Part shown: one piece after another, positions 8,586 to 13,454 of the stretch
Numbering within the stretch: the stretch's first letter is position 1
Layout of the letters: the number at the start of each line of letters is the position of its first letter
NCBI GenBank assembly: GCA_028284195.1
Contig: JANQSE010000002.1
Coordinates: 372,001-436,000, forward strand
Length of the DNA: 64,000 bases
Direction of reading: 5' to 3'
Source: Balneola sp.
GTDB taxonomy: Bacteria; Bacteroidota; Rhodothermia; Balneolales; Balneolaceae
Notes under the pieces: generated by a model
Databases searched by the model: none
What the model was told of the DNA's origin: nothing
The model's input: only the letters and a program-made list of their open reading frames with translations
Program-made: the position numbers and the translations under genes

Positions 8586-9017
8586 TCATTTCTTTTTCTT
8601 CTTACCTACCGTTTTTTCTTCCTTCTTTTCTTTTTCACCGGCCTTAGTTTCTTTTTTGGCTTTTTCTTCTGCCTTCTCTTCTTCTTCCTCAGTAATCTCA
8701 ATTACTTCTGCATCCACTGAATAGTCGTCGTCTTCGGTAACTTCTTTTTCTACCAGAATTTGATAATCGTTGATGAACATAGCAAACATACCAATAGCTG
8801 AAATTACCGGTGCCATAGCTCCAACTAAAGCCGCCCCGCCAACACCAAACGCAAGTTGAGTTTGGAATACCACTTCACCTTCTTTGTTTTTTATGATAAG
8901 CTTGCGTGCACTGCCTTCTTTAATCATTTCGCGGATGGAACTAATCACTTCATTCACTCCGCCCTGCACTTCTTCATAGATGCGTTTTGCCTTAGATTTT
9001 ACTTCTTCTTTCTTCAT
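8586..9017 (-). CDS. DUF4342 domain protein with acidic/lysine-rich tail
   Basis: A 143-residue protein. The N-terminal ~90 residues match the DUF4342 pattern as I recall it: an amphipathic helix (VNEVISSIREMIKEGSARK), a short strand block LIIKNKEGEVVFQTQLAFGV and one hydrophobic segment of about 22 residues (GAALVGAMAPVISAIGMFAM). The remaining ~50 residues are a low-complexity Glu/Lys tail ending KKKKK, likely unstructured. Function is unknown; the family is often found in Gram-positive and Bacteroidota genomes as a single-pass membrane-associated protein. Its start codon abuts the first copy of a 95-bp sequence that recurs in front of comM, suggesting that this gene and comM once shared a divergent promoter region. 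Confidence 0.7.
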   Translation of the reverse strand: MKKEEVKSKAKRIYEEVQGGVNEVISSIREMIKEGSARKLIIKNKEGEVVFQTQLAFGVGGAALVGAMAPVISAIGMFAMFINDYQILVEKEVTEDDDYSVDAEVIEITEEEEEKAEEKAKKETKAGEKEKKEEKTVGKKKKK

Positions 9018-9018
9018 G

Positions 9019-9112
9019 ATATGTGTGATTTATGAAAATTTTTGTAAGGAATTAGTTCCGAACTGGCCTGACTACGGCAAACAAACAAAAAAGATTCGGA
9101 ATTAAAAATATG
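9019..9112. repeat. First copy of ~95-bp duplicated intergenic sequence
   Basis: About 94 bp beginning ATATGTGTGATTTATGAAAA, directly after the DUF4342 start codon, matching 11821-11915 at roughly 83 of 95 positions by eye; the first 35 bases are identical. The end of the copy includes an ATG that corresponds to the comM start codon in the other copy. The two copies flank the glycosyltransferase cassette 9250-11764 in direct orientation. I infer that this is the ancestral DUF4342-comM intergenic region, duplicated when the cassette arrived. Confidence 0.85.
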
Positions 9113-9249
9113 CTTTGCCTTTTGTGTTCCCTTATCTTTTTTTTATAGAGGTTTATACAACTGGTACAGGTATCATAAAAAACAGATTATTTTTTATATT
9201 TCGCACTAAATAATTCTTTTGAAACTCTAATGCCAATCAATTTGCTTAG

Positions 9250-10188
9250 ATGCACATAACCCTTCTTATTCCTCTTTATAACGAAGAAGAGATGCTTCCA
9301 CTATTAGTTGATGAATTAGAGAATTTCAGGAAAAAGAGAGATGAGAATATTGATATTCTTTTTGTAAATGATGGAAGCAAAGATGCTACGGAAGAATTAG
9401 TAAAACAGCTAACCTCAAGCATATCTGGATATCGGGTGATCAATTTTTCCAGAAATTTTGGCCATCAAATTGCCGTAACTGCAGGCTTGGATTATGTAGA
9501 GGCAGATGCTGTAATAATTATGGATGCAGATCTTCAAGATCCGTTATATGTAGCAGGAGAAATGATCGATAAATGGAAAGAGGGTTATGATGTAGTGTTT
9601 GGTGTAAGGGAATCGAGAGAGGGGGAAAGTTTCTTTAAAAAATTTACGGCCAAAATATTCTATCGTTTCTTTAAGTGGTTTACCGAGCTGGATATTCCAT
9701 ATGATACGGGAGATTTTAGGCTGCTTTCGCAACCAGTAATTCAGGCTTATCAAAAGGTAAAAGAGCAAAATCCGTTTGTAAGGGGCTTAATTGCATGGCT
9801 AGGTTATAAGCAAATTGGGCTGCAGTATAAGCGGGAAAGTAGAAAAGCTGGCGAAACAAAATACCCGTTAAAAAAAATGCTAAAACTGGCAGGCAATGCA
9901 ATAAGTTCTTTTTCTAATAAGCCACTTAAAATTACTATTCAATTCGGAATGATGGTGTCTGTGATCGCATTTTTAGGAATCGGGTGGGTGATATACGTAC
10001 GACTTTTTCTGGAGCAGGTGGTACCGGGTTGGGCCTCAACGTTGCTGATAGTTCTGTTAATAGGTGGAGTGCAATTCATTTTTATGGGAGTTCTGGGTAT
10101 TTATATATCTAAAATTTTTAATGAAGTTCGGCAGCGTCCGCGCTATTTAATCAATGATATTTGGGAATCGGATCCACATGAAAAATAA
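9250..10188 (+). CDS. Polyprenyl-phosphate glycosyltransferase (GT2, DPM1/GtrB-like)
   Basis: A 312-residue GT-A glycosyltransferase with a membrane anchor. N-terminal domain: ITLLIPLYNEEEMLPLLVDE, FVNDGSKDAT, INFSRNFGHQIAVTAGLDYV and the DXD-like IIMDADLQDP, all typical of dolichol-phosphate-mannose synthase and bacterial GtrB/ArnC-type enzymes that move a sugar from a nucleotide donor to undecaprenyl phosphate. Two hydrophobic helices near residues 232-252 and 264-290 anchor the C-terminus. The next gene is a polytopic GT-C-type protein that starts within this one, so the pair likely makes a lipid-linked sugar and transfers it outside the membrane. The sugar is not predictable. Both genes lie between direct repeats, suggesting acquisition. 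Confidence 0.87.
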   Translation: MHITLLIPLYNEEEMLPLLVDELENFRKKRDENIDILFVNDGSKDATEELVKQLTSSISGYRVINFSRNFGHQIAVTAGLDYVEADAVIIMDADLQDPLYVAGEMIDKWKEGYDVVFGVRESREGESFFKKFTAKIFYRFFKWFTELDIPYDTGDFRLLSQPVIQAYQKVKEQNPFVRGLIAWLGYKQIGLQYKRESRKAGETKYPLKKMLKLAGNAISSFSNKPLKITIQFGMMVSVIAFLGIGWVIYVRLFLEQVVPGWASTLLIVLLIGGVQFIFMGVLGIYISKIFNEVRQRPRYLINDIWESDPHEK

Positions 10189-11764
10189 AAATAAGGTCAT
10201 TGAGTTAGAATCGGTTACTCTAAAAAACTGGCAATTAGCAGCGATTACAGGGGGGGCTTTTTTAGTCTATTTTACTTATTCCTTTTTTTCGGATGGATAT
10301 TATCAGCATGATGAGGCTGCTCATTACTTGAACATGAGAAGCTTTTGGTACGATCCCTCTGTTATAATGGGCAATTGGGCAAAACCCGGGTATAAAATTC
10401 TTTATGTGCCTTTTTCTCTGTTGGGGCCCTCCGCTTTAATTGTAGTAAATAGTTTAGTTACATCGCTAACGTGCTATGTTACTTATAAACTTTCTCAGGC
10501 GATTGGACTTAAGATCCCAATTCTTGCATTTATTTTTTTAGCTTTACAGCCATTTTGGTTACAGCTCTCATTTCGAAATTATTCCGAATTTATAACAGCC
10601 TTAATTTTGATTTGTTCGGTATATGCTCATCATAAAAACAAATACTGGGTGGCTGCACTACTGCTTTCGTACACGGCAACTATCCGCCAGGAGATGTACC
10701 CTGTTATTGCGATATACTTTTTCTACTTAGCGTACCGAAAACAATGGATACCCATGCTTTGCCTTGGTGTTTTTCCGCTGATAATAAACGGCATTGGTTG
10801 GATGCAATCAGGTGATCCTCTATCTCTGGTCAACCAAATAATTGGTAAAAGCCAAACTATTGGAAATGCTTATCCGCGGCAGGGGGGCGATCATTATTTC
10901 AAAATGGCTTTAACAGTTTATGGAGCACTTACTCTCACTTTTTTTATGGCTTATATTGCTACAGGTTTATTTCACAAACGAAAATGGCATTGGTTTATAT
11001 TTTTTCCGGCGGTTGCATTTTTTGGAATGCACGTGATTTTTAATATAAAAACGCTCGATTTCGGCCCTGCAACAGGTGGAAACCTCAGATATTTGGTGAT
11101 TATTTCTCCTTTGCTTGCTGTTTTGGGTAATATTGCAGTGGAAAGAATGCTGGTGTTTAAATCGTTCAAAGAAAAAAAGTGGGTATTCTTTGTACTGGTT
11201 TCTTTTGCGTTTGCAGTATTGATATTTTTGAGCTACGCACACAATAACATAAAATTTACCGGCCAAAAGGATCTATTCCCATTCCTAACCGTTGTTCTAA
11301 GCGTGGGCTTAGCTGCTATTAGTTTACCATCAAAAAAGTTTGTGTATGCTTCTCTGGGAATTGCCATTTTTTCTGTATTAGTTACTGTTAAACCATACAA
11401 GATTACCGCTGAAGATACTTCGTGCAGACAGTTTGTTGAATGGGCAAAACACTCAAATATTGAAGAACGGCCGCTTTTGTTGAATCATACAATGATTTAT
11501 TACTTCTATGGAAAGGTGGCAGAAGATTTTAAAAACGGAGCTGAAAGAATTAACGAAACCACGGTAAGCGAAGCGGAACCTGGCACCTATATTATTTGGG
11601 ATTCTCACTATTCGTATAGGCCAAACCTCAGGTCAGGTTCGTTAAAGCATACTTATTTTTTAGAGAGGCCCGAAGAATTTCGTCTGGTTATTAATCCCAT
11701 AATCACACCCGATCAACGCTTTGGGATATTCGTTTTTGAAAAACTTGTCCCTAAAAAGAGCTAG
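10178..11764 (+). CDS. Polytopic GT-C-type glycosyltransferase-like membrane protein
   Basis: About 528 residues with roughly ten to twelve hydrophobic helices and a C-terminal soluble part. Near the first periplasmic loop is SDGYYQHDEAAHYLNMRSFW, resembling the acidic DE motif of PMT/ArnT/GT39-type enzymes, which use polyprenyl-phosphate sugars as donors. A frame from 10154 is open, but the ATG at 10178 gives a lysine-rich cytoplasmic N-terminus (MKNKNKVIELESV) and only an 11-base overlap with the upstream gene. The partner GT2 supplies a likely donor. Acceptor (protein, lipid A or other glycan) is unknown. Specific family membership is tentative; the fold class is better supported than the reaction. 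Confidence 0.7.
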   Translation: MKNKNKVIELESVTLKNWQLAAITGGAFLVYFTYSFFSDGYYQHDEAAHYLNMRSFWYDPSVIMGNWAKPGYKILYVPFSLLGPSALIVVNSLVTSLTCYVTYKLSQAIGLKIPILAFIFLALQPFWLQLSFRNYSEFITALILICSVYAHHKNKYWVAALLLSYTATIRQEMYPVIAIYFFYLAYRKQWIPMLCLGVFPLIINGIGWMQSGDPLSLVNQIIGKSQTIGNAYPRQGGDHYFKMALTVYGALTLTFFMAYIATGLFHKRKWHWFIFFPAVAFFGMHVIFNIKTLDFGPATGGNLRYLVIISPLLAVLGNIAVERMLVFKSFKEKKWVFFVLVSFAFAVLIFLSYAHNNIKFTGQKDLFPFLTVVLSVGLAAISLPSKKFVYASLGIAIFSVLVTVKPYKITAEDTSCRQFVEWAKHSNIEERPLLLNHTMIYYFYGKVAEDFKNGAERINETTVSEAEPGTYIIWDSHYSYRPNLRSGSLKHTYFLERPEEFRLVINPIITPDQRFGIFVFEKLVPKKS

Positions 11765-11791
11765 TTAAAACAGCACATTCTTTGATACTTA

Positions 11792-11817
11792 AAAGCCTTT
11801 TTGAGAGGCTCATTTTA
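11792..11817 (+). terminator. Possible weak intrinsic terminator after the glycosyltransferase pair
   Basis: Stem AGCCT (11794-11798) and AGGCT (11806-11810) with a seven-base loop, flanked by AAAA on the left and CATTTTATAA on the right. The stem is short, so efficiency is doubtful. It lies 30 bp after the stop of the polytopic glycosyltransferase and just before the second 95-bp repeat copy, which would insulate the cassette from comM. Confidence 0.4.
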
Positions 11818-11820
11818 TAA

Positions 11821-11915
11821 ATATGTGTGATTTATGAAAATTTTTGTAAGGAATTGGTTCCGAACTGATCTAACTATGCAAAACGAATAAAAAAGATATC
11901 GGAATCAGAAATATG
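11821..11915. repeat. Second copy of ~95-bp duplicated intergenic sequence
   Basis: Direct copy of 9019-9112, beginning ATATGTGTGATTTATGAAAA and ending with ATATG, whose ATG is the comM start codon. The copies differ at about a dozen positions, mostly in the second half. It probably carries the comM promoter. The copy at 9019 sits in front of DUF4342 on the opposite strand, so the original single copy would have been a divergent promoter region between DUF4342 and comM. Confidence 0.85.
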
Positions 11916-13454
11916 TTAGCCAGAGTTTATTGCGCATCCACCGTAGGCGTAGATGCCCGGATTATAGATGTAGAAACGCATCACACAAATGGAATGGTAA
12001 AGTTCTTTTTGGTAGGGCTGCCCGACCGGGCGGTAAGTGAATCACGCGACAGGGTAGAAGCCGCAATCAGGAATACCGGTTCCTATTATCCGTTGGGAAG
12101 AATTACCGTAAATCTCGCTCCTGCTGATCTGCCAAAAGAAGGGAACGCATTTGATTTGCCCATAGCTATTGGGCTGCTTCGAATGTCCGGGCAAATCCAT
12201 ACCGAAAAACTGGACGAAACCGTAATGGTAGGCGAGCTTTCGCTTGACGGGCAAATTCGTCCGGTTAAAGGAGTACTACCCATAACTGTTGAGGCAAAGA
12301 AACAAGGCTTTAAATACCTGATTGTGCCTAAAGAAAATGGTGGGGAAGCTGCCGTGGTGGAAGGGATTGAAATATTTGCCTTCGACCATTTGAACCAGGT
12401 AAAAGATTGGTTGGAAAATCGCGGTTCAATGCAGCCGCTTGAGGTAGATGTAAACTCCTTTTTCAGCAAAAATGGTCATTCCAAAGTACTGGATTTCAGT
12501 GATGTTCGTGGGCAGGAAAATGTAAAACGAGGATTAGAGATTGCCGCTGCAGGTGGCCATAATGCCATTATGGTAGGGCCTCCTGGATCGGGGAAAACGA
12601 TGATGGCCCGGCGCATACCAACTATTTTGCCACCACTTTCTTTAGATGAAGCATTAGAAACTACAAAGATTCATTCAGTGTCTGGAATTTTGGATGGAAG
12701 AAAAGCTTTGATTACATCCCGTCCATTTCGGGCTCCGCATCACACCGTTTCGGATGTTGCATTAGTTGGCGGAGGAAGCGTACCCATGCCGGGCGAAATC
12801 TCTATGTCTCATAACGGGGTTTTATTCCTTGATGAATTACCTGAGTTCAAGCGAAGTGCGTTAGAAGTAATGCGGCAGCCACTTGAGGATGGTTTTGTTT
12901 CTATTTCGCGTGCACGAATGAGTGTTACTTATCCAAGCAGAGTGATGTTGGTTGCATCAATGAACCCTTCTCCGTCTGGCGATTGGTATAATCCTCAGGA
13001 TATGAATGGAGCCTCTGCATTGGCAATGCAGCGATACCTGAGCAAGATAAGCGGCCCGCTTTTAGACAGAATTGATTTGCATATCGAAGTAAATAAGGTG
13101 AGCTACGATGAGCTTTCAGGGAAGGCTAAAGGAGAATCGTCTGCAATAATCAGAAAAAGAGTAGTTGAAGCCAGGGAAGTGCAAACCAAACGATTTATAG
13201 GTTTAAAATCAGTGTATTCGAATGCACAAATGAATACCAGAATGGTTCGTAAAGTTTGTAAGCTCGATAAAACCGGCTCAGAAATTTTGAAGAAAGCTAT
13301 TACCTCGTTAGGGTTATCTGCACGAGCATATGATCGTATTCTAAAAGTATCCAGAACCGTTGCCGATCTGAATCGATCGGAGAATATACAGCCGCACCAC
13401 ATTGCAGAAGCAATTCAATATAGAAGCCTGGATAGAGAGGGGTGGTTGGGGTGA
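11913..13454 (+). CDS. comM: ComM/YifB-family Mg-chelatase-like AAA+ ATPase
   Basis: A 513-residue AAA+ protein, the usual length. The N-terminal domain (LonC-like, residues 1-170) contains KFFLVGLPDRAVSESRDRVE and ITVNLAPADLPKEGNAFDLP. The ATPase core has Walker A GPPGSGKT (222-229), RPFRAPHHTVSDVALVGGG, Walker B NGVLFLDELPEF and the sensor region VMLVASMNPSPSG. The C-terminal Mg_chelatase_C region includes LSARAYDRILKVSRTVADL. In naturally competent bacteria ComM is a hexameric helicase promoting branch migration during DNA uptake; here that role is by homology. The start codon is shared with the end of the duplicated 95-bp sequence. One oddity: the zinc-type cysteines seen in some relatives between the core and C-terminus are absent here. 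Confidence 0.93.
   Translation: MLARVYCASTVGVDARIIDVETHHTNGMVKFFLVGLPDRAVSESRDRVEAAIRNTGSYYPLGRITVNLAPADLPKEGNAFDLPIAIGLLRMSGQIHTEKLDETVMVGELSLDGQIRPVKGVLPITVEAKKQGFKYLIVPKENGGEAAVVEGIEIFAFDHLNQVKDWLENRGSMQPLEVDVNSFFSKNGHSKVLDFSDVRGQENVKRGLEIAAAGGHNAIMVGPPGSGKTMMARRIPTILPPLSLDEALETTKIHSVSGILDGRKALITSRPFRAPHHTVSDVALVGGGSVPMPGEISMSHNGVLFLDELPEFKRSALEVMRQPLEDGFVSISRARMSVTYPSRVMLVASMNPSPSGDWYNPQDMNGASALAMQRYLSKISGPLLDRIDLHIEVNKVSYDELSGKAKGESSAIIRKRVVEAREVQTKRFIGLKSVYSNAQMNTRMVRKVCKLDKTGSEILKKAITSLGLSARAYDRILKVSRTVADLNRSENIQPHHIAEAIQYRSLDREGWLG

Follow-up and report, generated by a model that had tools for sequence, protein, structure and literature searches.

In the 64-kb window, by which we mean the whole stretch of DNA that was analysed, a DUF4342 gene and comM point away from each other and are held apart by two genes of glycosyltransferase type, and this cargo is bracketed by two copies, A and B, of one and the same intergenic region (Table 1). 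The window genome (G000) belongs to the Balneolaceae, and going by the named matches its nearest named relatives are Balneola. The original prediction held that a polyprenol-sugar GT2 and its GT-C partner are all that lies between the copies, and that no transposase or integrase remains. The ORF and profile searches bear this out, and neither of these enzymes was found there with Pfam and NCBIfam; a tRNA gene is likewise absent. The terminator-like hairpins that were found, among them the weak one ahead of copy B, are not more numerous than in shuffled sequences.

Table 1. Features of the DUF4342/comM locus, with positions counted from the first letter of the window
Feature	Position	Strand	Support or remark
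DUF4342 gene on the left, pointing away from comM	8586..9017	-	Pfam PF14242, E 8.9e-15
Copy A of the region between the divergent genes DUF4342 and comM	9019..9119	+	the first 3 codons of comM survive as a remnant at its end
Two-box promoter-like motif, copy A	9039..9073	+	TTTTTGTAAGG (9039-9049) and CCTGACT (9067-9073)
Cargo gene 1, GT2 of GtrB/PgfS type (polyprenyl-phosphate glycosyltransferase)	9250..10188	+	Pfam PF00535
Cargo gene 2, multi-TM GT-C-like protein	10181..11764 (alternative start 10154)	+	
Weak terminator-like hairpin between cargo and copy B	11794..11810	+	
Copy B, immediately before comM and containing the comM start	11821..11921	+	repeat comparison with relatives
Two-box promoter-like motif, copy B	11841..11875	+	TTTTTGTAAGG (11841-11851) and TCTAACT (11869-11875); fits the strict pattern
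comM (YifB-family Mg-chelatase-like AAA ATPase), right neighbour	11913..13454	+	TIGR00368, E 9.3e-191, above cutoff; Pfam

The first cargo gene starts about 130 bp past copy A, and its product is similar over its full length to enzymes of the sll0501/ArnC type, with E 1.8e-78 over residues 3-306 against the solved homologue sll0501 and E 3.8e-82 against the PgfS model, the latter below the curated cutoff. The GT-C-like protein carries HDEAAH in its first loop, has no sequence match in Pfam, NCBIfam or PDB, and gave a predicted model of low confidence (pLDDT 52). No close relatives of it turned up in a search of the genome contig collection. Among 128 genomes of the order its gene was seen in four (G000, G017, G032 and G035, where there is one further homologue), and it is absent from all same-genus relatives. 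The pair had been proposed as something to look for elsewhere in relatives, and we did find the two-gene unit in G017 and G032, where a GT-C homologue of 41-43% identity stands beside a GT2 of 61-63% identity at another locus, adjoining a MacB-like permease. Wherever it was checked, a GT-C homologue adjoins a GT2. Because these homologous pairs sit at another locus, the GT pair is, as far as the compared genes tell, a rare unit that has moved or been lost independently of the DUF4342/comM site. In G017 the pair at the second locus (L143:3691-6181, on G017:C2) is decaying, its GT-C gene having two in-frame stops. The G+C content of the pair in the window is 0.38 against 0.45 for comM, the values of some DUF4342 genes being close to that of the cargo (0.396).

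The copies have the same orientation, and over a core of 95 bp they match at 83 positions (87%), the first 35 bases being identical. Their alignment scores 130, whereas 1000 dinucleotide-preserving shuffles reached 41 at most. The similarity, as well as the inclusion of the comM ATG in it, is confirmed as originally described, and the excess similarity that was to be tested for is evident. The ATG of comM lies inside copy B and corresponds to an ATG at 9112-9114 in copy A, and the similarity ends about 10 bp inside comM. Within the window A and B are the sole long intergenic direct-repeat pair, and a search of the whole genome found the full-length repeat at these two sites only, the next best matches being about 35 bp long.

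A pattern search for boxes and spacing revealed a promoter-like motif of two boxes in the duplicated region, TTTTTGTAAGGAATT-N-(G)TCTNACT, which is ECF-like in that its two-box form may resemble the ECF promoters of Bacteroidota. The second box of copy A departs from TCTNACT, and this copy thus fails the strict pattern. The region can be aligned across seven genera with 58 conserved columns, 56 of which are kept in copy A and 55 in copy B, and the conserved blocks in the alignment of single-copy regions are TATGT...ATTTA..TGAAA, TTTTTGTAAGGA, TCT.ACTACG and AAAAGATTC. The differences between the copies tend to fall outside the conserved columns (p 0.02 in G000 and p 0.0009 in G017), a pattern that is consistent with constraint on both copies, and that is confounded if some of the differences predate the duplication.

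The related pattern TTTGTAAGG-N14-19-TCTNAC occurs at 11 places in the window genome and its reversed form at 0, and a slightly longer pattern occurs at 2-19 places per same-genus genome. The sites in G000, on contigs C4, C12, C13, C14 and C18 (L170-L180), precede recA, ssb, radC, comM and comEC, as well as two four-helix genes of the 23S-intervening-sequence type and glycine-rich mini-genes; in relatives the motif also precedes GIY-YIG, DUF559 and PD-(D/E)XK genes. This gene set looks like a candidate competence or DNA-processing regulon in Balneolaceae. In a small search of the open literature we found no description of a competence regulon of Balneolaceae, and no direct precedent in what is written on Balneola competence, comM regulon genes or DUF4342. 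The LexA/SOS regulon of Balneolaeota, which is known from the same phylum, likewise includes recA, but its box, the direct repeat TTACACATATTTTWTACATA (PMC7739468), was not found here. A LexA operator was therefore rejected as an explanation of the conserved block: the best matches have at least 5 mismatches in the region and 7-8 in single-copy relatives, and the 5-mismatch match in G000 overlaps the junction of cargo and copy B. Two of the mini-genes are tandem paralogues, both preceded by a motif copy of their own (L180:1030-1700, that is G000:C18:9240-9910), and encode glycine-rich peptides beginning MTDIDNNCYLNRPDG and MIDIHNNYYLNRPGG; one possibility is that such products are pheromone-like peptides.

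The recurrence of the motif could be taken to mean that A and B are alike through a genome-wide promoter element and not through duplication of the region, since the two-box core is found at all 11 places. We regard this as highly improbable, and for the full repeat it is refuted: the other regulon sites share just the two boxes with it, and the complete 95 bp, which include the spacer, the upstream block and the start codon, are found only here. The original prediction would have failed if the repeat were a genome-wide element of many intergenic regions; the full sequence is not, being unique to this locus, but the promoter core inside it does recur before other genes.

We located comM in 92 genomes of the family, fetched the upstream DNA and measured the interval between DUF4342 and comM, and the 70 genomes that had the two genes on a single stretch could be tested. 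In 68 of these the genes are divergent neighbours with a single region of 44-378 bp and no cargo, the region being about 90 bp in the nearest genera, and all 7 same-genus relatives have this single-copy, cargo-free arrangement. Longer intervals were seen only in the window genome (2895 bp) and in G017 (1285 bp). Other families of the Balneolales likewise have the divergent pair. Since 68 of the 70 genomes are single-copy and cargo-free, the comparison shows that the ancestral state is a divergent pair with one region of about 90 bp, and that the two-gene insert and the second copy are derived. This agrees with the original prediction that DUF4342 and comM were once divergent neighbours sharing one region, and the opposite case, that all relatives carry the cassette and both copies, is not what the family looks like. 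The left side of the locus is also variable, since in same-genus relatives (L039-L043) the interval between a TrxR-like gene and a fatty-acid-hydroxylase (sterol desaturase-like) gene varies by several kb.

One could also imagine that the genus had the cassette from its beginning and that it has been lost elsewhere by precise recombination between the copies, which direct repeats would permit. Copies A and B and the region of the sister group are about equally distant from each other (identity 0.84 between A and B, against 0.83 and 0.82 to the sister group), and with A, B and the G001-group region near a trichotomy the duplication could date back to that split; the tree of these regions of about 90 bp is too short to order the events. 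Such a history would demand many independent losses, as the other genera, except for the lineage of G017 and G032, are single-copy and without the GT pair, and we hold it to be very unlikely.

In G017 the interval contains a gene for 307 amino acids with WD40-like/TolB-like matches, situated between two copies of the same region. This cargo, a putative TolB/WD40-like lipoprotein gene, is different from that of the window. On the left the repeat begins at the very base where it does in the window, immediately beyond the start codon of DUF4342, and on the right it once more reaches about 10 bp into comM. The spacer of copy B has diverged in G017, with the boxes and the TATGTGCGATTTATGA block retained. 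In G032, the sister of G017, the region upstream of comM is of the G017 copy-B type, the contig ends inside the repeat and DUF4342 is absent from the assembly, which suggests that G032 probably shares the G017 duplication event. The two copies of G017 group together, apart from those of the window (support 86 in a short alignment), and because of this two separate duplications, one in each lineage, are favoured. The second lineage and the nature of the duplicated promoter are what is new compared with the earlier reading.

Two lineages with the same site, nearly the same repeat ends and different cargo could point to the region being the attachment site of an integrase or small mobile element, with the copies as attL and attR and the enzyme lost or acting in trans. 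Recombinases do visit the comM locus, since islands of about 9.5-40 kb interrupt the comM ORF in four relatives (L055:2566-12652, in G012; G061:C2:127976-139237; G080:C9:190591-200144; G066:C1:1373076-1412910), three of the four near codon 216-221 and the one in G012 with a large serine recombinase. These islands, however, enter within the ORF and not in the intergenic region, and neither of the two inserts has an integrase, a terminal motif or a tRNA. The copies have moreover diverged and keep signals of promoter function, unlike short att cores, and a cargo of 0.9-2.6 kb without a recombinase would be unusual. We find an attachment site unlikely, while the near-identical ends in two lineages keep some kind of site-specific process possible.

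The reading that we prefer, with a probability of about 0.72 for the account as a whole, is that the two genes share divergent promoters within some 90 bp and that an insert survives only if this region is duplicated. Judged from the sequence, the region would hold overlapping control elements for DUF4342 and comM, among them one or more ECF-like promoters directed at comM and, upstream, a block whose conservation extends to the DUF4342 start codon. Because the same 90 bp would serve two genes, a plain insertion would be costly and strip one neighbour of its control, and duplication would remove this cost. The inserts that persist would then be those that bring or make a duplicate of the region, after which copy A would serve DUF4342 and copy B comM. 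Both of the longer inserts (2/2) are bracketed by the duplicated region, and such a division of roles agrees with the second box, which departs from the consensus in copy A but is preserved in copy B, the one before comM. It also counts for the account that conserved columns are kept in both copies, that the motif stands before recA, ssb, radC and comEC too, and that the GT pair is found as a two-gene unit elsewhere and has a G+C content below that of comM. Two events are few, though, and a filter by selection leaves the near-identical repeat ends in both lineages unexplained. Against the account it also counts that a search beyond the repeat ends in G000 and G017 gave no decayed comM or DUF4342 fragments above shuffles, and that comM and DUF4342 have ordinary identities to relatives and no sign of foreign origin.

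How the second copy came about is the least certain part of the account. We favour homologous recombination, for instance Campbell-type integration of a fragment, circular or rearranged, with the cargo and one copy of the region, which could have been acquired by natural transformation. Nearly as likely as such an integration is that a local tandem duplication came first and that illegitimate recombination afterwards brought the cargo in between the copies, an order of events that taken by itself is possible but doubtful. It would fit with A and B being mutually nearest, if only by the small difference in identity given above, with the grouping of the two G017 copies, and with ATATG at the start of the region and at its comM start end, a possible microhomology. 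Copy A nevertheless reaches about 10 bp into comM, past ATATG, in both lineages, and no cargo-free tandem copies were seen among the 70 genomes, of which G064, with an interval of 209 bp, was not looked at more closely. The data are consistent with the claim that the pair came in along with the duplicate, but duplication in situ followed by insertion fits them equally well; in its main points the original account is supported. A bolder idea, which we think improbable, is that a recombination with fixed ends repeatedly adds cargo together with a near-exact promoter copy in competent Balneolaceae, and that the promoter belongs to an undescribed competence regulon of comM, comEC, recA, ssb, radC and small nucleases. 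Promoter duplication, as we prefer to read the locus, would show a way for genes to settle in a compact bidirectional promoter and leave the neighbours unharmed, the promoter being duplicated and the copies free to specialise, and with at least two lineages at the same site the idea is testable.

Among known systems, insertion-duplication of the Campbell type also leaves the region of homology directly duplicated around the inserted genes. Here the homology is only about 95 bp, there are no vector, replication or integrase genes, and the homology would lie in a divergent promoter and thereby account for the insertion being tolerated; the mechanism is in our case inferred. The att site of a genomic island may carry a replacement gene end or promoter, so that insertion regenerates the control or coding end of the flanking gene, whereas the present locus has no recombinase, a larger repeat, and two flanking genes served instead of one. 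In Streptococcus pneumoniae, DNA uptake and short repeats can likewise create duplications, but the transformation-induced merodiploids and tandem duplications reported there are of about 100-900 kb and involve existing chromosomal repeats, in contrast to the roughly 95 bp around foreign cargo in our case (PMC3784515). The AbaR islands of Acinetobacter also insert at or near comM and disrupt its ORF (PMC7508600), whereas comM is intact here and has kept its promoter.

A scan for repeat pairs over 436 kb of the same contig gave no further promoter-bracketed inserts, the other long pair outside ORFs being degenerate tRNA-Pro-like fragments. These are 94% identical and bracket a gene of 3 kb (G000:C12:247625-247719 and 251016-251110). 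Close to them are what by eye is an apparent tRNA-Pro, at about 254350-254424, and a glyoxalase-gene fragment that is present twice, at 254058 and 254500, and the tRNA-Pro-like fragments are probably traces of tRNA-site integration.
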